DNA of 36,930 bases from an uncultured Verrucomicrobiales bacterium (GTDB lineage Bacteria; Verrucomicrobiota; Verrucomicrobiia; Limisphaerales; UBA1100): contig CAJWVY010000013.1 in NCBI GenBank assembly GCA_913048135.1, positions 1 through 36,930 of the forward strand. The letters are read 5' to 3'. Of the stretch, positions 15,611 to 28,425 are shown piece after piece; position 1 is the first letter of the stretch, and the number at the start of each line of letters is the position of its first letter. The position numbers and the translations under genes are program-made. The notes under the pieces are model-generated. The model worked only from the letters and a program-made list of their open reading frames with translations. It ran no database searches and was not told the DNA's origin.

Positions 15611-16552
15611 ATGAAAACTCAAATAACCAACCGAGGCTTTACCCTCATTGAACTACTCGTAGTGATCGCCATAATTGGCATACTTGCTAGTATGCTCCTA
15701 CCCACCTTGGCAAAGGCTAAGAACAAAGCCAACAAGATGAAATGCCAAAACAACGCATCTCAAGTCGCCAAGACTTTTATATCTTGGTCAGGTGATAACA
15801 GTGCCTTTCCTTGGCATGACGCCTCCATGGTGAGTAATACAGATGCCCGCCACAAAGGTTGGAAAGGGTATAAAGAAGTTTTTAGCCCGGAAACTATTTG
15901 GGCAGGAAATGGTATTGCTGATTCCCTCCCCCCCAAAATGCTAGCTTCCCCATCTGACCCAGTTGCCAACACTTGGGCATCACGTCCACAGTTTACGGAT
16001 ATCGATGGAGATAAGTTCACTAACCCTCTTTCTTTCACCGATGTACCTTACCATTCTAGCGGTTATCGTAATGTGAAATATTCTAAATGGTGCCAAAGCT
16101 ATGCGATTGGTATCGGGGCTGACCACTTGGTCCCAGAAACCGTTCTGGCAATGGGAAGAAACTGGAACAAAGGTGATCAAATGCGGGATGTCTGGAAAGC
16201 TTTTGGAGGCTTGGGCGCACAATACGAAAAGAAGAAAAAAGAAGTACAAATGCCCCGAGGAACCATGATCACCAAAGACATGAAGAGTGAGCAAGATTAC
16301 CCAGGAGCGATCAATGGGAACACTTTTACGATTCAGTCTAATCTCGCGGGTCCTGGTCACCCTGAGTATAGTATGAACGGATACGGAGCAGGTGAGACGG
16401 TCATGGCCAACTCTGATGGCTCATCAAAACTCATTACTGGTGATGCAGAAGCTAATGCACAATTGCAGGCTCATGTTGATGCAACACCCCAAATGACGGC
16501 TCATTCGCTCAACATCCCAATGTTCCTTCGTCCGAAGAAGGATGTTGATTAA
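15611..16552 (+). CDS. Pseudopilin-like protein with prepilin cleavage/methylation motif
   Basis: A 313-residue protein with a type IV prepilin/type II secretion pseudopilin leader: [19 protein letters not shown], with cleavage expected after Gly and the conserved Glu at +5. The leader is followed by [19 protein letters not shown], a segment typical of the very large verrucomicrobial family of pseudopilin-like proteins. The rest (residues 50-313) is a secreted globular domain with several Trp; no enzymatic motif is visible. The start is fixed by the leader. Verrucomicrobia encode dozens of these proteins; some may form periplasmic or surface fibres, but the function is largely unknown. It is bounded by terminators on both sides (15402 and 16579) and so is transcribed alone. 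Confidence 0.9.
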
Positions 16553-19786: not shown

Positions 19787-19998
19787 GATTTGCTCTGGAT
19801 GAAAGTATCGGCCAGTGTTTTGCTTGCTGCCGCTATTTGTTCTAGTTGATCCAAGCCTTGAATGGCTTCTACCGTGTCAACTAGTTGAACTTTCCGAAAA
19901 CACCCGGCGCAAAATGCTAGATGTGATTCACCGCAACCTTCCAATGCGTCCCATTTTTTAGGGCAATCCTCACTTTTGCAATTCGCAATGACATTCAT
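19783..19998 (-). CDS. Cys-rich mini-protein (zinc-ribbon-like)
   Basis: A 71-residue cytoplasmic protein with five Cys at 7, 12, 22, 30 and 33. The arrangement CPKKWDALE, then FCAGCFRKVQL, recalls small bacterial proteins of the CPxxWxxL ... FCxxCxxxV pattern that are likely to bind zinc through the CxxC knuckle. No function is known. It overlaps both neighbours by 4 bases (SOUL upstream, membrane protein downstream), so it is certainly part of the operon and translationally coupled. It could be a metal- or redox-sensing accessory; that is speculation. Confidence 0.72.
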   Translation of the reverse strand: MNVIANCKSEDCPKKWDALEGCGESHLAFCAGCFRKVQLVDTVEAIQGLDQLEQIAAASKTLADTFIQSKS

Positions 19999-20573
19999 TT
20001 TTTTATTTCAGTTACGGGTATCAGCAATTCATTTCTCCTAAGAAAGCCCGGTGTCCATGGAGGATCATAGAAAGCTTCGATAGGATCCCCAGTGGCAACG
20101 AGGTTATTTTCTTTAATCCACTCCCTAAGTTTAGAATCAATTTTCACAGGTGTTATTCGGTGTCGGCCGGAATAACGATAGGCCGCGAGTAACATCTCGG
20201 GTTGAGTTACATTTTTTACAGTCTCGAGATTCGGTAATGGCACATCTTCTTTATCGAATTTGTCTGGAAGGACAAAAGCCATGGTAGATTCCCCATTTTT
20301 TCTGGTAGTGAAAACGGGAGTCGTCATGGCTATTTTTTGTTGTTTGTCGTTTCCACCGTCAATATATCGAAAAAGACGCATGAAACCGTTGTCTTGGTCG
20401 CTGGACATAGTGGTTTCGACCAGTTGAAGTTCCGAATAATGGCGCAATTCAACGCTACCCTCTTTCTTTAAAACTTTATGGGAAGCTTCTTCGTAACCCG
20501 CCCTAGTAAACTTAGTCGCCGCACAGGCTGAAGCCATGCTGATGCAAGTGAGTATGATTAATTTTTGTATCAT
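19995..20573 (-). CDS. SOUL family haem-binding lipoprotein
   Basis: A 192-residue protein of the SOUL/HBP haem-binding family. From ATG 20573 the N-terminus MIQKLIILTCISMASAC is a lipoprotein signal. The SOUL fold follows: YEEASHKVLKKEGSVELRHY, GFMRLFRYIDGGNDKQQKIA, MTTPVFT (the most conserved family motif), AFVLPDKFDKEDVPLP and AFYDPPWTPGFLRRNEL. Family members bind haem or other tetrapyrroles, which are photosensitisers, and this fits its place next to photolyases and glutathione peroxidase. A TTG further upstream (20597) would start inside the glutathione peroxidase stop region and is less likely. It overlaps the next gene by 4 bases. Confidence 0.9.
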   Translation of the reverse strand: MIQKLIILTCISMASACAATKFTRAGYEEASHKVLKKEGSVELRHYSELQLVETTMSSDQDNGFMRLFRYIDGGNDKQQKIAMTTPVFTTRKNGESTMAFVLPDKFDKEDVPLPNLETVKNVTQPEMLLAAYRYSGRHRITPVKIDSKLREWIKENNLVATGDPIEAFYDPPWTPGFLRRNELLIPVTEIKK

Positions 20574-20580
20574 TTTGAAT

Positions 20581-21075
20581 CTACAGGAGTTTTTCAATGG
20601 CCGAGGTTAATTGGTCCGATTCAGGATCTACAAAAGTGTGAAATCTGTCCACGATATCGCCGTCACGATTGATCAAGAATTTCGTGAAATTCCATTTCAC
20701 GAGTCCACCATGTTCTGAATGACTGGTTAACCAGCGATATAGCGGGTGAATGTTTCGTCCCCATACACTAATCTTAGAATACATTGGAAACGAAATGTTG
20801 AATCGAGTTTTGGCGAATTGATGTATTTCCTCATCGCATCCGGGTTCTTGAAACAGAAAATCATTGGATGGAAAACCGCAGATTGTAAGTCCCATAGGAC
20901 CATACTTTTGCTGCAAATTTTCCAAACCTTCATACTGAGGGGTGAAACCACAGCGTGAGGCTAAGTTTACAATAAGGAGTATCTTTCCTTTGTAATCACC
21001 CAGAGTGGAGTCAGTTCCGTCAATGGTGGTCAGGGGTATATCGTAAATTGGTGAGGTGTTGCTAACGGTGTTCAT
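20581..21075 (-). CDS. Glutathione peroxidase family (thiol peroxidase)
   Basis: A 164-residue cytosolic peroxidase reducing H2O2 or lipid hydroperoxides. The catalytic set is intact: peroxidatic Cys42 in NLASRCGFTPQY, Gln76 in FLFQEPG, and Trp128-Asn129 in VKWNFTKFL. It is a Cys, not selenocysteine, enzyme. The usual resolving Cys at the FC position after the QEPG segment is replaced (HQFAKTRF); Cys80 just after QEPG might substitute. Length is normal. It overlaps the photolyase gene by 4 bases (21072-21075), so a peroxide-scavenging function is produced together with light-dependent DNA repair. Confidence 0.94.
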   Translation of the reverse strand: MNTVSNTSPIYDIPLTTIDGTDSTLGDYKGKILLIVNLASRCGFTPQYEGLENLQQKYGPMGLTICGFPSNDFLFQEPGCDEEIHQFAKTRFNISFPMYSKISVWGRNIHPLYRWLTSHSEHGGLVKWNFTKFLINRDGDIVDRFHTFVDPESDQLTSAIEKLL

Positions 21076-22469
21076 GCTTTAGTTTTCTCATATGCTTTCA
21101 GCGCTCTATCTCTGGCATCTGAATGGTCAACAATTGGGTTAGGGTAATTCTGACCTCTATCAACTTTAGAAGGTTCAAAAATATCGGGAGCAGACATGTG
21201 GCGTAATTCAGGGACCCACTTGCGTATGTAATCCCCCTCAGGATCAAATTTAATTGCCTGGGTCGTTGGGTTAAAAATTCTGAAGTAAGGAGCTGCATCC
21301 GCTCCTGAACCAGCTGTCCATTGCCATCCCTGGGTGTTGGAGGCAAGATCGGCATCCACTAAGGTGTCCCAAAACCAATCCGCCCCGTGACGCCAATGTA
21401 TCAAGAGGTGTTTCACGAGGAAAGATGCTACCACCATTCTTACTCTGTTATGCATCCAGCCGGTGGCCCATAACTCCCTCATACCTGCGTCCACAAGCGG
21501 GTAGCCGGTTTGTCCCTTTTGCCATGAGCGCAATTGAGGTGAATTCTCTTTCCACGGAAATCGATTAAATTGCGGCCTTAAGGGCTCACGCACAGTGTGG
21601 GGGAAATGATACAGGAGATGGTAGCCAAATTCGCGCCACCCAATTTCGGATAAATAATGAGACTCCTTCCAGTGGGCATGGCCGGATTGCTCAAGGGAAT
21701 GCTTAATTTGCCGCGGGCTTATTTCACCAAATCTTAGATGTGGAGATAATCTGGAAGTCCCCTTGGTGTTGGGAAAGTTACGAATCTTAGCGTAATCATT
21801 AAATGAATCATTAATGAATAGTTCTAAGGCTGAAGCAGCCCCTCGTTCCCCCGGGGTCCAAACCTCATTCATGCTGTGTCCCCAATCTTGCTCAGGCTCC
21901 AAGTTCAGTTCAGAGAGTTCGGTGGTCCTTAAAGATACCTTGGGGGGTTCAACTTTTTGGGGGGCTGGAAGAGGAGTACTAGCATTTAATTTTTTGAGGC
22001 AATGTTTCCAGAACGGCGTAAATACCTTAAACGGTAAACCACTTTTATTTTCAATCTCCTCTGGTTCCGCTAGGAGACTCGCTTTAAAAGTTTTTACTGT
22101 TAGCCCTGCTTGCCGAAGTTGACACGCAATCTCGTCATCCCTCCTTCGGATCATCGGTTCATAGCGCCGATTCCAATAGACTCCTTTTGCTCCGGTATCC
22201 TTCGCCAGTTTTTCTAGATTTTTGATGGATTCGCCCGTTCTTAAAACGAGCGTGGTGCCTAGTTTTTCTAAACTTTCTGTTAGGCTTTTTATTGATTGAT
22301 GTAGCCACCAGCGTGTTGCAGCCCCGGGACTCATATCCTCTTCTTCTGGAGACCAGATAAATACGGGTATGATTCTACCTTCTTTGGCTGCTTCAAACAA
22401 AGCAGGATTGTCTTCGATCCGTAGGTCAGATCGGAACCAGACAATAATTGTTTGTTCGTTGGTGTTCAT
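21072..22469 (-). CDS. phrB: Deoxyribodipyrimidine photolyase, class I CPD type
   Basis: A 465-residue photolyase, close to the usual 470. N-terminal antenna-binding alpha/beta domain: IVWFRSDLRIEDNPAL, GRIIPVFIWSPEEE, GVYWNRRYEP. C-terminal FAD-binding helical domain: TSRLSPHLRFGEISPRQI, YLSEIGWREFGYHLL, PLVDAGMRELWATGWMHNR, VASFLVKHLLIHWRHGADWF, DADLASNTQGWQWTAGSG, PYFRIFNP. It repairs cyclobutane pyrimidine dimers using blue light and FADH-. It overlaps the iron-sulfur photolyase upstream and the peroxidase downstream by 4 bases each, so the order in the transcript is 6-4-type enzyme, CPD enzyme, peroxidase. Confidence 0.95.
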   Translation of the reverse strand: MNTNEQTIIVWFRSDLRIEDNPALFEAAKEGRIIPVFIWSPEEEDMSPGAATRWWLHQSIKSLTESLEKLGTTLVLRTGESIKNLEKLAKDTGAKGVYWNRRYEPMIRRRDDEIACQLRQAGLTVKTFKASLLAEPEEIENKSGLPFKVFTPFWKHCLKKLNASTPLPAPQKVEPPKVSLRTTELSELNLEPEQDWGHSMNEVWTPGERGAASALELFINDSFNDYAKIRNFPNTKGTSRLSPHLRFGEISPRQIKHSLEQSGHAHWKESHYLSEIGWREFGYHLLYHFPHTVREPLRPQFNRFPWKENSPQLRSWQKGQTGYPLVDAGMRELWATGWMHNRVRMVVASFLVKHLLIHWRHGADWFWDTLVDADLASNTQGWQWTAGSGADAAPYFRIFNPTTQAIKFDPEGDYIRKWVPELRHMSAPDIFEPSKVDRGQNYPNPIVDHSDARDRALKAYEKTKA

Positions 22470-24022
22470 GCAGCCAGAGAAACGGTTCCATGCTGCCGTA
22501 TTAGGGCGGCTTGTTCCTTGATTAATTGTAGTTGAAGCGGCTCAATACGTTCAAGATTTCTCAACTGTAAACTCATCCGGGGATTAGTTCTTAATTGTTC
22601 ATGATGTTTATCTAAAAAGTCCCAATATAAAGTTGTGAAGGGGCATGCTTCCTTGCCTGTAGATTTTGACGGATCATACCTGCAACTCTTACAATAGTTG
22701 CTCATCCTGTTTATATATTTTCCCGTAGCTACATAAGGCTTTGAACCCATTACACCCCCGTCCGCGAACTGGGACATTCCAATCACATTCGGCATTTCCA
22801 CCCATTCAACAGCATCTACATACATAGATAGAAACCACTCATGAACTTGCTTCGGATTAACACCGAGCATCAATGTATAGAGGCCGGTAACCATTAAGCG
22901 TTGAATGTGGTGGTTATAGCCCGTGCTCAGCGTTTGTTGGATACAATCATTTAGACAGGACATCTCTGTATCACCTGTCCAAAAGAAATTCGGTAAATCC
23001 TCTTGGGCATTGAGTGAATTAGAGTTCACATATTCAGGCATCCGGTGATGATGAATTAATCGAACGAATTCGCGCCAACCGAGAATTTGGCGAATAAACC
23101 CTTCAACGGACGATAGCGAAGCGTGATCTGAATGATAGGCTTTCTCAGCAGCGGTTAACACTTCCCTAGGAGAAATTAACTTTAGGTTTAAGCAAACAGA
23201 TAGGCGGGAATGGTATAACCAGGATTGACCAGACCACATGGCATCTTGGAATTTACCAAAGTTAGGCAGCCTTTTTTGGACAAAATCATCTAATGCTTTG
23301 AGGGCTTGGCTTCTGGTGACGGGCCAATTGAAATTTTCGATAGATCCGGGATTTTCAGGAAATGCATTCTCTACCTCCTTCATCACCTCCTTTGTTATCG
23401 AATCGCTCTTAAAAAAAATAGGATCAACAAGGTCTTGAGGGCCATGTTTTTTGAAGGAACCTCGGTTCTGCTCGTCATAGTTCCACTTCCCTCCAACTGG
23501 CAAATTGCCCTCCATGAGGTAACCAGTCTCTTTTCGGAGTCTTCGGTAAAAAAACTCCATCCTCTGTTTTTTATCATTTGCCCCGAAACTCTTGAAATCA
23601 TCTGGATCACAAATGAAGTGATTGTCCCTCAATATTTCGTAATTTTGGTTATGTTCATCCAGGATATTAGACAAGCTTCTCTCTACCCTAAAATCACCCG
23701 GTTTGGTCAGAACCACTTTTTTAATTTGGTGATCTGATATGGTTTTTTCGAGTGCCGATGCCAGTGACTGCTGTCTCTCACTTAAAGGATGGTATAATAC
23801 ACGGCGGCCGATGCCTTGTTGCTCGGCACAAAAGTGCCGCATCGCACTTAAAAATAAGACACTTCTGGCTTTATGAGATGGAACGTGGAGATTTTCAGTG
23901 TGAACTTCGGCCATCCATATTACGTCAACGGAATCGTCAAATTCATCCAAGGCAAGTGCCTGGTGATTCAATTGATCGCCTAGTACAACGACTAGTTTCC
24001 TAATGACTCTTGGATGATTCAT
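22466..24022 (-). CDS. Iron-sulfur bacterial cryptochrome/(6-4) photolyase (FeS-BCP, CryPro)
   Basis: A 518-residue member of the deoxyribodipyrimidine photolyase-related family: LVVVLGDQLNHQALAL at the start, GKWNYDEQNR, FGKFQDAMWSGQSWLYHSRL, EGFIRQILGWREFVR, HIQRLMVTGLYTLMLGV, VIGMSQFADGGVMGSKPY. Four Cys expected to bind a 4Fe-4S cluster are at 356, 444, 447 and 460. The spacing 88/3/13 equals that of the four cluster ligands I recall for Agrobacterium PhrB (350, 438, 441, 454). The likely activity is FAD- and light-dependent repair of (6-4) photoproducts, or photosensing. ATG 24022 is preferred to the TTG at 24049. It overlaps the SRPBCC gene by 23 bases. Confidence 0.93.
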   Translation of the reverse strand: MNHPRVIRKLVVVLGDQLNHQALALDEFDDSVDVIWMAEVHTENLHVPSHKARSVLFLSAMRHFCAEQQGIGRRVLYHPLSERQQSLASALEKTISDHQIKKVVLTKPGDFRVERSLSNILDEHNQNYEILRDNHFICDPDDFKSFGANDKKQRMEFFYRRLRKETGYLMEGNLPVGGKWNYDEQNRGSFKKHGPQDLVDPIFFKSDSITKEVMKEVENAFPENPGSIENFNWPVTRSQALKALDDFVQKRLPNFGKFQDAMWSGQSWLYHSRLSVCLNLKLISPREVLTAAEKAYHSDHASLSSVEGFIRQILGWREFVRLIHHHRMPEYVNSNSLNAQEDLPNFFWTGDTEMSCLNDCIQQTLSTGYNHHIQRLMVTGLYTLMLGVNPKQVHEWFLSMYVDAVEWVEMPNVIGMSQFADGGVMGSKPYVATGKYINRMSNYCKSCRYDPSKSTGKEACPFTTLYWDFLDKHHEQLRTNPRMSLQLRNLERIEPLQLQLIKEQAALIRQHGTVSLAA

Positions 24023-24497
24023 TAAAAAGCTCCGGATGCACTTCTCCAAATTCGTTAATTAAGATCTGGTGGCGATACGTGAAAACCTGACGAAGTTTAC
24101 TCACCACAAACGGCGAAAATGCGGAGTGGACCAATTTTCCTCCAGGCATCATAAATTCAATTTCATCGCGCATTAAGCACCCGCGTGAGTCACTTTTAAG
24201 GAACAAGTGTCTATGTTTCCATATCTTGAAGGGGCCATCAATTTGTCGGTCACTAAATTCGCGCCCCGGCTTTACATTTTCTAATTCCGCGGTCCAATCC
24301 ACATACAGGCAGCAACCTAGCAGGGGAATCCTCAGGTGGGCTTGATTACCATCCCCAAGTTTCGCGGCTCTGACCACATCAATGGCATCTTCCTCGGGGG
24401 TTAGACGTTGTAGTGCGAAAGGCTCGTCGTGCCACCCATATACCTTCTCGGGCGAAGCGTTCAAGTGGGTTTGGTGGATGTATTTTGTCGTATACAT
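24000..24497 (-). CDS. SRPBCC (START-like) ligand-binding protein
   Basis: A 165-residue SRPBCC-superfamily protein of the cyclase/dehydrase-like type: YIHQTHLNASPEKVYGWHDE, FALQRLTPEEDAI, then LRIPLLGCCLYVDWTAELEN, FSDRQIDGPFKIWKHRHLF, CLMRDEIEFMMPGGKL and a C-terminal helix LRQVFTYRHQIL. These proteins have a deep hydrophobic pocket for lipids or polyketides. Relatives beside photolyase genes are common in light-inducible clusters, but the ligand is unknown. It overlaps the cryptochrome start by 23 bases and lies 10 bases after the mini-gene at 24508. Confidence 0.87.
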   Translation of the reverse strand: MYTTKYIHQTHLNASPEKVYGWHDEPFALQRLTPEEDAIDVVRAAKLGDGNQAHLRIPLLGCCLYVDWTAELENVKPGREFSDRQIDGPFKIWKHRHLFLKSDSRGCLMRDEIEFMMPGGKLVHSAFSPFVVSKLRQVFTYRHQILINEFGEVHPELFNESSKSH

Positions 24498-24507
24498 TTC
24501 AATCTAG

Positions 24508-24666
24508 TTAGAATTTTGCCTGATGACCATGAATATGGTGTTCGCTCACCTCATCCGCTTCGTCCCCTTGGTTCAGATCCTGTAACAACTCAACAAGATT
24601 ATGGCAAAGGGCGGAAGTCACCAGAAATCCGAACATTAAAATTCCGAGTAATATTGGATCTTCCAT
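24508..24666 (-). CDS. Small single-span membrane peptide (52 aa)
   Basis: Reading minus from ATG 24666 gives a 52-residue peptide with one hydrophobic segment (LLGILMFGFLVTSALC) and a polar tail rich in Asp/Glu/His (EADEVSEHHIHGHQAKF) ending in TAA. A very good Shine-Dalgarno (GAGAGGAG) lies 11-18 bases before the start, inside the end of the preceding gene, and the start is 2 bases after that gene's stop. Spacing is therefore what one expects of a real operon member. The His-rich tail could bind metal. No family is recognised. Confidence 0.7.
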   Translation of the reverse strand: MEDPILLGILMFGFLVTSALCHNLVELLQDLNQGDEADEVSEHHIHGHQAKF

Positions 24667-24668
24667 AT

Positions 24669-24857
24669 TTATTTCTCCTCTCTAATTTGATTTTTCTCAA
24701 TTTGACACAGCTTATGCACGGCCCATAGCCCAAGGATACTTGGCACCCATATCCCTACATATGCACCGTATTCGCGGTTTACAGTGAACCAGAGTAATAT
24801 GCTTACAAACATACTGCTCATCGCACAAGTCAGGTAGATGATGTCTGTTTTCTTCAT
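24669..24857 (-). CDS. Small membrane protein with two spans (62 aa)
   Basis: A 62-residue protein with two predicted transmembrane helices (IIYLTCAMSSMFVSILLWFTV and YVGIWVPSILGLWAVHKL, split by NREYGA) and a charged C-terminus (EKNQIREEK). It sits 13 bases after the sigma-factor gene and 2 bases before the next mini-gene. No family is recognised. The context suggests an inner-membrane accessory of the stress operon. Confidence 0.72.
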   Translation of the reverse strand: MKKTDIIYLTCAMSSMFVSILLWFTVNREYGAYVGIWVPSILGLWAVHKLCQIEKNQIREEK

Positions 24858-24870
24858 GGGTCAAAGTTTC

Positions 24871-25749
24871 CTAAGCAGCCATCGGAAGTGCCGCATCTTT
24901 CAAAGTTAAGGCACTGCGCAATTTATTAAGGGCAGTTTTTTGAATCTGGCGTATTCTCTCTCGAGTCAATCCGTAATCTTTGGCGATTTCCCCAAGGGAA
25001 CGATTTTTCCCGGTACCGATTCCATAACGTTGCCTTACAATGTCGCATTCTCTTTCATCGAGTATATGCATTGCTTTTTCAATGTAGGCAAAATCATGGT
25101 CGCAAGTTGCGGCGACATCAGGAGCAGGGGAGTTTTCATCGGCTAATCTTTCATGAAGAGAACGCACTTCCTCGTTCTCATCTTCATCCAGTGAGAACGA
25201 AGCCTTCTGGGATCTTTTCATCAATTGGATTTTCTCAAGTGTCATACCAGTAGCCTCAGCGAGTTCTTCGTCCATGGGTGGGCGCTTCAATCGGCGGTTG
25301 AGCTCAATTTCAGCTCTCCGCATTTTTTGAATGTGATCCACCAGATATACAGGCAGTCTTACTGTTCGTCCCTGATTGGCGAGTGCACGACGTATGAATT
25401 GTCTTACCCAAATGGCGCAAAGCGTTGAAAACCGGCAGCCATATTCAGGATCAAATTTTTCGGCGGCTCTGATTAGTCCAAGATTCCCTTCGGATACCAG
25501 ATCCATGTACTCGAGGCCCAAATTCTGGTATTCCTTGGCAATCTTAAGAACGAGGCGAAGGTTGGCTTTCACAAGTTGGTTGACGGCTTCTTTATCCCCA
25601 GCTTGGACACGTTTTCCCAATTCTATTTCCTGATCGTGAGAAATACGGTCCCATTCGGACATTTCACGCAGGTACCGGGTTAAATTCGTTACCTCATTCG
25701 ATCTTGGTTCGTATGTTGTGCTTACTTCAAATTTTTCTGTGTTTTTCAT
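24871..25749 (-). CDS. Group-2 sigma-70 factor (RpoD/SigA-like, non-primary)
   Basis: A 292-residue sigma factor with regions 1.2 to 4.2 but without the long 1.1 region of primary RpoD. Region 1.2/2: YLREMSEWDRISHDQEIELG, KANLRLVLKIAKEYQNLGLE, DLVSEGNLGLIRAAEKFDP. Region 2.3-2.4: RFSTLCAIWVRQFIRRALAN then GRTVRLPVYL. Region 3: LKRPPMDEELAEATGMTLEK. Region 4: ERECDIVRQRYGIGTGKNRS and LGEIAKDYGLTRERIRQIQ. The start at ATG 25749 is preferred; 14 further in-frame codons upstream cover a hairpin. The near-consensus 2.4 and 4.2 regions imply recognition of promoters close to TTGACA/TATAAT. Placement inside the photolyase operon implies a dedicated stress sigma, perhaps with positive feedback on the promoter at 27327-27354. 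Confidence 0.93.
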   Translation of the reverse strand: MKNTEKFEVSTTYEPRSNEVTNLTRYLREMSEWDRISHDQEIELGKRVQAGDKEAVNQLVKANLRLVLKIAKEYQNLGLEYMDLVSEGNLGLIRAAEKFDPEYGCRFSTLCAIWVRQFIRRALANQGRTVRLPVYLVDHIQKMRRAEIELNRRLKRPPMDEELAEATGMTLEKIQLMKRSQKASFSLDEDENEEVRSLHERLADENSPAPDVAATCDHDFAYIEKAMHILDERECDIVRQRYGIGTGKNRSLGEIAKDYGLTRERIRQIQKTALNKLRSALTLKDAALPMAA

Positions 25750-25769
25750 GATCAAGTGCTCTTCTGCAT

Positions 25770-25798
25770 GAGGGGGATGGATTAATTCCATCCCCCTC
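25770..25798 (-). promoter_or_regulatory. Perfect 12-bp hairpin between FAS1 and sigma genes
   Basis: GAGGGGGATGGA (25770-25781) and TCCATCCCCCTC (25787-25798) are exact complements with a 5-base loop. It lies 18 bases after the FAS1 stop and 20 bases before the sigma ATG. No T-run follows on either strand, so it looks like an mRNA stabiliser, processing site or partial attenuator that would set FAS1 output above sigma-factor output. Confidence 0.75.
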
Positions 25799-25816: not shown

Positions 25817-26761
25817 TTACTTAGTACTCGTCTTCTGCGCCCTGTCTTTTGGGAGAAGGACTTTATCTATAACGTGAATTACGCCATTTGCAGCGTTGAT
25901 ATCAGCTTTGATGACGTTCGATTTGTTGATGAACACTTGCCCATCTTTCAGCTTGAGTTTCACCTTCTCATTGGCAACTGTTTCAACCTTGCCGGGCTTT
26001 ATGTCCTTGCTCTCAACTTTTCCGGCAACTACATGGTATGTAAGTATTTTGATCAGTTTGTCTTTGTTTTCAGGCTTTAAAAGACTCTCAACCGTTCCTT
26101 TCGGTAACTCCGAGAAGGCCTTGTCGGTCGGTGCAAATACTGTAAATGGCCCCTTACCTTTGAGTGTGTCTACCAAGCCTGCCGCCTTCAGTGCAGCTGC
26201 GAGGGTTTTGAAGTTCCCTGCCGCGACAGCAGTATCAACGATGTCGGCAGATTTACTCTTGCTGGATGTGGAGGTGAATTCTGTCTTTGGTTTCGGAGGT
26301 AGCATGACACGGTCGATCACGTGCACTACTCCGTTGTCAAACTTCACGTCTGCTTCCCGCACCCGTGTATGATTGTTATTCAGCAAGACGTAATGTCCCC
26401 ACTTCTTGACTGCGAGGTGGGCGCCATTCACAGTTTCTAATTCACCGCTTCGGAGACTGCAGGAAGTACGAGCTTCTCCCAAAACGTGGAAAGTAAGAAT
26501 GGACTTCAGTTGCTGCTTGTTCTCGGGCTTGAGCAGGTTTTCCACGGTACCCTTTGGCAATCTCGCGAACGCGTGATCGTTAGGAGCGAAAACAGTGTAA
26601 TTCCCTTTGCTTTCAAGAGTCTTGGAGAGGCCCGCAGCCTTGACGGCTGCAACCAGAGTCTTGAATTGTCCGCAATCTTCGAGGGCAGACATTATATCTT
26701 TGGCTTGGGCTGTTGCGGCTGTTAAGCCAGTCAGTGCAATGATTGTCAGTAGATTTTTCAT
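25817..26761 (-). CDS. Exported protein with two fasciclin (FAS1) domains
   Basis: A 314-residue exported protein. The signal peptide [20 protein letters not shown] is followed by FAS1 domain 1 (about 22-155; [34 protein letters not shown]), a Ser/Lys-rich linker, and FAS1 domain 2 (about 170-308; [44 protein letters not shown]). Domain 1 has diverged and contains a Cys and a WGHY segment, while domain 2 is nearly identical in pattern to the separate FAS1 gene upstream, suggesting duplication. FAS1 domains mediate adhesion and ligand binding; bacterial ones are periplasmic or surface-bound. Shine-Dalgarno AAGAAAGGAAAA precedes the ATG; 27 bases separate it from the preceding FAS1 gene. Confidence 0.93.
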
Positions 26762-27265: not shown

Positions 27266-27326
27266 TTACTATCTCTGGATTAGGTTTTGTTTATGTTTTA
27301 GTGCTACAATAGCTGCAGCGCCCATA

Positions 27327-27354
27327 AATCTACTCCTAAAAAGAGATGTGTCAA
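27327..27354 (-). promoter_or_regulatory. Sigma-70-type promoter of FAS1-sigma-photolyase operon
   Basis: On the minus strand a perfect -35 TTGACA (27354-27349) is followed after 16 bases by TAGATT (27332-27327; 4 of 6 to TATAAT). It lies in the 151-base gap between the MerR gene and the first FAS1 gene and would give a leader of about 55 bases. The rest of this gap holds no gene. Confidence 0.65.
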
Positions 27355-27416
27355 CCTTTTGTGAAGAAAAAAACTCTACAAATTATAAACAGGATATTTC
27401 CCTGGAATTCGCGGTT

Positions 27417-28391
27417 TTATTGCGATTTGAATGTCAGATTCTCGTGCTCAACAAGTTTATCCATTGCTTTTTCGAGGCAAGCTCGCGATTCGGCGGCAAC
27501 ATTGTGCAGGTATTGATGAACTTCAGCGTCCTTAGTGTTGCGGTTTTCGCAGTCCTTCATGTAGGCCTCAAAATTATTTAGGCTAAATAAAATGTGTGAA
27601 AGATGTTGGGGGCATTCACATTTAATTGCGTTAGGTTGGTTCACAATTTCCCATAATTGTGAATCACTGTATCGTCTTTGCTGCACCTTCCCTCCACCTT
27701 CTTCATCGATTTGTGGTCGGTCGGCGGATCCCACAAGATGATTGGCTGCTAGAGTAAGTTCCTGAACATTGATAGGAGCTCGCAGTGGCAAGGTGGTATC
27801 AGTTGTCAAATTCCTAATGACTTTTTTGGGGCCAAAAGCATAGACCACGCAGGCTCCGATTGCTTCAGATTGCTTAATCGCCTGGTGAATTAAATCTAAG
27901 CTGTCTGGCTGAAGACTGGCGATTTGAAAGATAAGCAAATCAGGTTCGCATGCTTTGACATCCTTAGATAAGGCATTTTCAGGATTGAACTGACCCACTA
28001 ATTCCAGAGGGGCAGCATGAGAAGCTACTTCTGTGCTGCTTAGTTGGGGGATTCCATATCCCAATACGGCAACTTTAATGGGTGCTTGGCTAGATTGATT
28101 TCCTTTTGGCCCGCGCTTTGCCTCTAGTTCATTAAGACGTTTTTCCAACTCGTCCACACTCAAGCTGGCAATCATTCCAATGCTATCTCCTTGCTCGGTG
28201 AGTTCTTTTAATAAGATGAGTTTGGTGAGATCGTTCTCGGTATAAAGGCGCTGCTTTCCCTCTGTCCGAACCGGTTCTACGGCGTCATAGCGGGTCTGCC
28301 ACATCCGGATTGTAACGGGAGTAATCCCCGTTAAACGGGCAATTGCACCGATTTTGTATAGCTGTGATTTCTCCGGATTCACCATAATCAT
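27417..28391 (-). CDS. MerR-family transcriptional regulator, likely controller of the photostress operon
   Basis: A 324-residue regulator. The N-terminal MerR winged helix (YKIGAIARLTGITPVTIRMW, RTEGKQRLYTENDLTKLILL) is like that of light-responsive LitR/CarH proteins. The middle (about 105-205) is a Rossmann-like domain (IKVAVLGYGIPQL, CEPDLLIFQIASL, GACVVYAFGPKKVIR) without the DxHxxG cobalamin motif, so B12-based photosensing is not supported. The C-terminal domain begins with KCECPQHLSHILFSLNNFEA and has Cys and His (YMKDCENRN, EVHQYL), a pattern I recognise from proteobacterial MerR-type regulators; metal or redox sensing is possible. Starts ATG 28391 or 28385. It lies directly upstream of, and co-directional with, the operon it probably controls. 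Confidence 0.87.
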   Translation of the reverse strand: MIMVNPEKSQLYKIGAIARLTGITPVTIRMWQTRYDAVEPVRTEGKQRLYTENDLTKLILLKELTEQGDSIGMIASLSVDELEKRLNELEAKRGPKGNQSSQAPIKVAVLGYGIPQLSSTEVASHAAPLELVGQFNPENALSKDVKACEPDLLIFQIASLQPDSLDLIHQAIKQSEAIGACVVYAFGPKKVIRNLTTDTTLPLRAPINVQELTLAANHLVGSADRPQIDEEGGGKVQQRRYSDSQLWEIVNQPNAIKCECPQHLSHILFSLNNFEAYMKDCENRNTKDAEVHQYLHNVAAESRACLEKAMDKLVEHENLTFKSQ

Positions 28392-28396
28392 AAACA

Positions 28397-28425
28397 ATTC
28401 TTACACATAGCGCTGTGTGTGCCAA
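28397..28425 (-). promoter_or_regulatory. MerR-gene promoter with operator dyad filling the spacer
   Basis: On minus: -35 TTGGCA (28425-28420), 17-base spacer, -10 AAGAAT (28402-28397). The spacer coincides with an imperfect palindrome ACACATAGCGCTGTGTGT (28403-28420, 8 of 9 pairs), centred as MerR proteins require. The -10 ends five bases before ATG 28391, so transcripts would be leaderless or almost so. It is a likely autoregulatory site. Confidence 0.6.

Follow-up and report, generated by a model that had tools for sequence, protein, structure and literature searches.

Class III LitRs, known mainly from Burkholderia, are described in passages of PMC9758184 as having C-termini unlike known domains, and the same passages report a light-dependent change in the absorbance spectrum of a class III protein. 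According to the cited part of PMC6739363, class III LitR requires a chromophore other than B12, which is characterised there only as different from B12. Class II LitRs retain a four-helix bundle, work with a short LOV partner and bind TGTACA-N12-TGTACA (PMC9758184), while the direct-repeat consensus of CarH is nAnnTnnACAn (PMC8156234). We analysed a 36,930-nucleotide stretch of contig CAJWVY010000013.1 from a marine member of the Verrucomicrobiales (the whole stretch is referred to as the window), in which a MerR-family regulator heads an array of genes on one strand. An initial annotation of the regulator had been made from the sequence, and we report how its claims compare with the results below.

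Gene array

The regulator gene is genuine, and its orthologues inside the genus shared 75-89% identity. Alternative in-frame starts were TTG at 28397, ATG at 28385 and GTG at 28382. In window coordinates the array comprised:

27417-28391, minus: MerR-family regulator gene, an ORF of 324 aa counted from the ATG at 28391
27327-27354, minus: promoter-like TTGACA/16/TAGATT before the first fasciclin gene, conserved in orthologous loci L037 and L038
26789-27265, minus: fasciclin-domain protein 1 (Pfam E 4e-42)
25817-26761, minus: two-fasciclin-domain protein (Pfam E 6e-79)
24871-25791, minus: RpoS/RpoD-like sigma-70 factor (profile matches), found in the identical 6/9 genus genomes that have the regulator
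24669-24857 and 24508-24666, minus: two small ORFs of 62 and 52 aa (ORF list)
24000-24497, minus: protein of 165 aa with no match in Pfam or NCBIfam, conserved in L037-L040
22466-24049, minus: DPRP-type (PhrB-like) photolyase (Pfam DPRP E 4e-67)
21072-22469, minus: DNA photolyase/cryptochrome (Pfam E 3e-86 and 3e-51)
20581-21075, minus: glutathione peroxidase (Pfam E 1e-33)
19995-20597, minus: SOUL haem-binding-type protein (Pfam E 3e-38)

Both small ORFs follow the sigma factor gene and precede the gene of the 165-aa protein, and the 62-aa product resembles a membrane protein. Synteny of this photoprotection array held in L038-L040 over the sequence compared. G+C content was 43-46% between window positions 16000 and 28000 versus about 57-62% for most other parts of the window. 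Together with the occurrence in 6/9 genus genomes and the observation that ridA does not flank the array in L039 and L040, the low G+C points to a block that is mobile or was inherited differently. A viral-contig scan was negative.

Domain architecture of the regulator

28167-28358, minus: MerR HTH, residues 12-75 (Pfam MerR_1 E 1.5e-14)
27717-28085, minus: middle domain resembling a receiver (pseudo-receiver), residues 103-225 approximately (profile and fold)
27438-27686, minus: C-terminal Cys/His helical domain, residues 236-318 (alignment and AlphaFold2 model)
27603-27620, minus: CECPQH motif, residues 258-263 (family alignment)

HTH. The resemblance to LitR/CarH claimed by the initial annotation was borne out. 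Besides the MerR_1 match, the top PDB profile match of the HTH was the CarH HTH (E 8e-16 with the family profile), and a single-sequence PDB search placed CarH (3whp/5c8d) among the nearest solved relatives (E 2e-5, over the HTH only). The lack of a DxHxxG motif in the middle domain was likewise confirmed, as a motif check found neither [DE]xHxxG nor Wx9EH in the regulator and a search for B12-binding Pfam domains gave no match to the protein. Wx9EH occurred in 0/42 sequences of the family alignment. By contrast, 11/11 LitR-type homologues (L008-L018) from the order's other families carried the class I-like Wx9EH, while the genus has the Cys/His type.

Middle domain. A cobalamin domain was considered here and rejected: the motifs are absent, the CarH fold match consists of the HTH plus a flavodoxin-like core that is common to receivers, and the sequence profile leads to receivers. 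The profile matched the Spo0A receiver (E 2e-4), and the fold comparison aligned 111 residues with the KdpE receiver (Z 12.0, rmsd 2.7 Å). The fold is that of a CheY/Spo0A-like receiver in which the phospho-Asp and the conserved Lys are both substituted, the former by Gln156 (Glu in 24/42 relatives) and the latter by Ala205, so the usual phosphorylation of this domain is unlikely. Forms from Myxococcota that lack the HTH start with a receiver-like ILDD, which supports a receiver origin of the middle domain. These comparisons support a regulator that is LitR/CarH-like yet not of the cobalamin type. The initial annotation had called it a light or oxidant sensor other than cobalamin; the second half of that description is upheld by the missing class I motifs, the receiver-like middle domain and relatives in photoprotection loci, while trigger and cofactor are not readable from sequence.

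C-terminal domain. A CECPxH start followed by further Cys and His residues had been noted before, and the alignment agreed: CECPQH spans residues 258-263, and the invariant positions among 42 aligned relatives were C258, E259, C260, P261, H263, F274, Y277, C281, H292, L295 and E307. Since relatives were gathered by a CECPxH scan (265 loci, one genome per species), the invariance of CECPxH itself is partly built in; that of C281, H292, Y277 and E307 is free of this selection bias, and unbiased protein searches likewise returned CECPxH in full-length relatives. The AlphaFold2 model predicted three helices with pLDDT 90. Searches of this domain against Pfam, NCBIfam and PDB gave zero matches, Foldseek returned nothing below E 2, and VIA reached Z <= 8.1, within the chance range for helical hairpins, although a missing fold match does not prove a new fold. 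Judged from helix boundaries in the model, C258, C260 and H263 are expected opposite E307, at one end of a hairpin, with C281 and H292 near the opposite end; this placement would mean two sites, or a dimer that joins them. The Cys/His domain, the sole part of the protein with strictly conserved potential ligands, is the best candidate for the sensor.

Relatives and their loci

The architecture was widespread in Proteobacteria and Verrucomicrobiota, often with photolyase, fasciclin, sigma-70 or FAD-oxidase genes as neighbours, and the C-terminal domain was conserved across Verrucomicrobiota, Burkholderiales, Gammaproteobacteria and Myxococcota. Full-length relatives included Methylomagnum, Caballeronia and Burkholderia proteins, with those of B. 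anthina/arboris and Caballeronia at about 30% identity over 94-98% of the length. The B. anthina locus contained CFA-synthase-family, GTP cyclohydrolase, sigma-70, FAD oxidoreductase, photolyase and fasciclin genes, and in Caballeronia the regulator is followed by folE. Loci kept from beyond the genus numbered 76; 26 of them had a photolyase within the examined flank and 50 had at least one typical partner gene, leaving about a third with none of the tested partner genes. Among other Verrucomicrobiota, the neighbour of the regulator was a fasciclin gene in L125 and a sigma factor in L124; in L126 an amine oxidase gene and lipid-modification-like genes, annotated by eye, lay beside it.

The Cys/His domain occurred in three arrangements: behind an HTH and pseudo-receiver, in HTH-less proteins of Myxococcota and certain Verrucomicrobiota, and alone, in proteins of ~110 aa. 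Six proteins joined a receiver-like domain to the Cys/His domain (L050, L052, L055, L057, L060, L100), two of them verrucomicrobial and the other four in Myxococcota or deltaproteobacterial records; the 1.5 kb upstream of these six contained no MerR HTH. The stand-alone versions, from other Verrucomicrobiota, had CACPAQ in place of CECPxH and retained the later Cys, His and Glu. They were located at:

L032, 1501-1734, minus: match to a stand-alone domain protein
L033, 1501-1740, minus: match to a stand-alone domain protein
L036, 1426-1800, plus: stand-alone domain protein

Promoters and predicted operators

28420-28425, minus: -35-like TTGGCA, kept in L037-L040
28397-28402, minus: -10-like AAGAAT after a 17-bp spacer and 5 bases ahead of the ATG, kept in L037 and L038
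28403-28420, no strand: palindrome with 8/9 pairs, without conservation in orthologues
28387-28408, minus: predicted operator ATGTGTAAGAA TTGTTTATGAT across the -10 and start codon (12.9 bits, genus-free matrix)
27371-27392, minus: predicted operator CTGTTTATAAT TTGTAGAGTTT upstream of the fasciclin-gene promoter (12.1 bits)
27348-27369, plus: predicted operator GTGTCAACCTT TTGTGAAGAAA overlapping the -35 of the fasciclin-gene promoter (11.8 bits)
27276-27297, plus: weaker repeat near the fasciclin start codon (9.0 bits)

Regulator promoter. The -10 does end five bases before the ATG, as first described (AAGAAT at 28402-28397, ATG at 28391), and the -35/-10/ATG spacing was identical in L037 and L038. 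L039 and L040 had TTGGCA-17-TATATG at this position, with in-frame ATGs downstream. A scanner found 3 promoter-like pairs in the region versus 2.3 in shuffles, so the pair is not significant by itself; its conservation in L037 and L038 is the better evidence. A leaderless regulator mRNA is plausible because the ATG lies so close behind the -10 and because no Shine-Dalgarno-like stretch could be read ahead of it.

Palindrome. A palindrome of 8 of 9 pairs had been said to fill the promoter spacer exactly. The pair count was right, but the dyad measures 18 bp and includes the last base of the -35. About 1 such dyad is expected by chance per 10 kb (8 in the whole window, and about 0.0025 for any single 25-bp stretch), and by hand count 6/9 pairs were retained in L038, 4/9 in L037 and 3/9 in L039. 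We rejected the palindrome as the main operator, as the dyad is real but decays in the closest orthologues. Of the proposed autoregulation through the palindrome, the autoregulation is supported by the predicted direct repeat at 28387-28408, and the route through the unconserved palindrome is not.

Direct repeats. Expectation-maximisation on the regions upstream of 73 non-genus relatives found an 11-bp direct repeat in two tandem copies, TTG(A/T)nT(A/C)GnnTT (printed TTGAaTaGntT). Log-odds were 431 at a period of 11, versus 100-198 at periods of 8-10, 12 and 13 and 43-58 in shuffled sequence. On the opposite strand the CarH consensus reads nTGTnnAnnTn, the same pattern as this repeat. The regulator-promoter site was the top match on the minus strand of the window, with the same offset in L037-L040. 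The site at 27371-27392 ranked second on that strand and was kept in the genus with up to 18.8 bits (L039), and the one at 27348-27369 was conserved within the genus at 11.7-12.9 bits. Counterparts of the weaker repeat at 27276-27297 scored 16.6-18.1 bits in the four orthologues L037-L040. The fasciclin promoter of L039 had scores of 18.8 and 18.1 bits. The predicted site positions were retained in L037-L040, and the window's own repeats, at 12-13 bits, were below those of many relatives. Of the 6 sites of at least 11.8 bits in the window, 3 fell within the regulator and fasciclin promoter regions.

The second set of sites, in front of the fasciclin gene, was absent from the initial annotation. 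Because the better-conserved predicted operators precede this gene (27266-27416), the whole fasciclin-led array is the likely target of the regulator. Two stronger matches, at 20554-20575 (plus, 15.2 bits) and 21803-21824 (plus, 14.6 bits), lie outside any tested promoter, within array genes or at their edges; the one at 20554-20575 is near the start of the SOUL gene. Away from the regulator promoter, the other lineages had 13 sites of at least 14 bits across 118 kb of intergenic sequence, against 6 across 981 kb of coding sequence, counts that are as expected if the regulon is small. Strong intergenic 11-bp direct repeats away from the regulator promoter were seen in L044, L054, L062, L093, L095, L103 and L112, whose neighbouring genes are candidate regulon members.

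Proposed mechanism and alternatives

Starting from the observed architecture, residue conservation, locus content and conserved predicted operator, we infer repression, a light or oxidant trigger, a cofactor, a relay and sigma amplification. The regulator is probably a non-cobalamin repressor of the LitR/CarH group that controls the fasciclin-led array and its own gene and is released by light or a photo-oxidant through its Cys/His domain. In dark or unstressed cells the repressor would sit on tandem 11-bp direct repeats. The pair of repeats spanning its own -10 and start codon would provide autoregulation, and the paired repeats around the fasciclin-gene promoter would bring the fasciclins, sigma factor, photolyases, glutathione peroxidase and SOUL protein under its control. 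Light, or a photo-oxidant made by light, may alter the state of a cofactor or metal at C258-x-C260-P-x-H263, C281, H292 and E307, and the receiver-like middle domain would relay this signal to the HTH assembly without the usual phosphorylation. Loss of binding would derepress the array, with possible amplification of the response by the sigma factor once it is induced. We also suggest, tentatively, that the CxCPxH/Cys/His/Glu domain is a new modular photo- or redox-sensing domain whose metal or Fe-S-type cofactor is the class III LitR chromophore.

A variant of this repressor mechanism with a different trigger is a possibility to which we give less weight: the Cys/His domain would be a redox or metal sensor and no photoreceptor, in which singlet oxygen, peroxide or NO reacts with bound Fe, Zn or an Fe-S cluster, so that light would act only indirectly. 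The invariance of the Cys, His and Glu residues is compatible with such chemistry, as are the glutathione peroxidase and fasciclins among the neighbours, and a Vibrio cholerae MerR-like regulator beside phr has been proposed to respond to light-made ROS (PMC5241685). The absorbance changes of class III LitR on illumination, reported in passages of PMC9758184, argue for direct light sensing, if the presumed identity of that class with the regulator's family holds.

It is unlikely that a separate photoreceptor partner is required, as in the pairing of class II LitR with a short LOV protein, with the pseudo-receiver as the docking surface. Receiver folds are common docking domains, and the class II LitR PmlR2 is inactivated on binding illuminated PmSB-LOV (PMC9758184). 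However, Pfam searches identified no LOV or BLUF gene among the cluster proteins and no BLUF in the genome, where the only four PAS_9 matches, which may or may not be LOV, were on other contigs; a partner would also leave the Cys/His domain without a role. Very unlikely, in our judgement, is classical MerR activation, in which the protein would bind the 28403-28420 palindrome inside the spacer and untwist the promoter. The 8/9 pairs between -35 and -10 would suit it, but the dyad decays in the genus orthologues while the direct repeat stays in place. MerR activators usually have spacers of 19-20 bp, against the 17 bp found here.

Comparison with known systems

The regulator is a probable class III LitR, judged by its Burkholderia relatives and the descriptions in later papers; we file it there because its locus setting matches LitR and because of the accounts in PMC9758184 and PMC6739363. 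Like the class III LitR of B. multivorans, as described there, it combined a LitR/CarH-type MerR HTH with no B12-binding domain and a C-terminus without similarity to known domains, and its Burkholderia relatives sit in photoprotection loci. It differs in coming from another phylum, and the identity of about 30% is to other Burkholderia relatives; its locus also has the RpoS/RpoD-like sigma factor, glutathione peroxidase and SOUL genes. The regulator adds a member to a known but poorly understood kind of LitR, with the sensor domain as the unsolved part, and extends the class III type to marine Verrucomicrobiota. The cross-phylum alignment yielded C258, C260, H263, C281, H292 and E307 as invariant candidate ligands, to which the receiver-like relay domain and the predicted CarH-type operator add, narrowing the question of the chromophore.

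Class II LitRs (PplR, PmlR2) share with the regulator a non-B12, LitR-type character and proximity to photolyase genes, whereas no four-helix bundle, TGTACA-N12-TGTACA site or short LOV partner was seen at the regulator locus, with no adjacent short-LOV gene among the cluster proteins. Vibrio cholerae VCA0056 is also a MerR-type regulator, and its blue-light stress operon includes a photolyase (PMC5241685); the Vibrio LitRs form class IV (PMC9758184), and VCA0056 is set apart from the regulator by description. With CarH and class I LitR the regulator has in common the HTH and the predicted 11-bp direct-repeat operator. In place of their four-helix and Rossmann cobalamin domain, with its Wx9EH and [DE]xHxxG motifs, it has a pseudo-receiver and a Cys/His domain, and the comparison suggests that the operator logic of CarH outlived a complete change of sensor.
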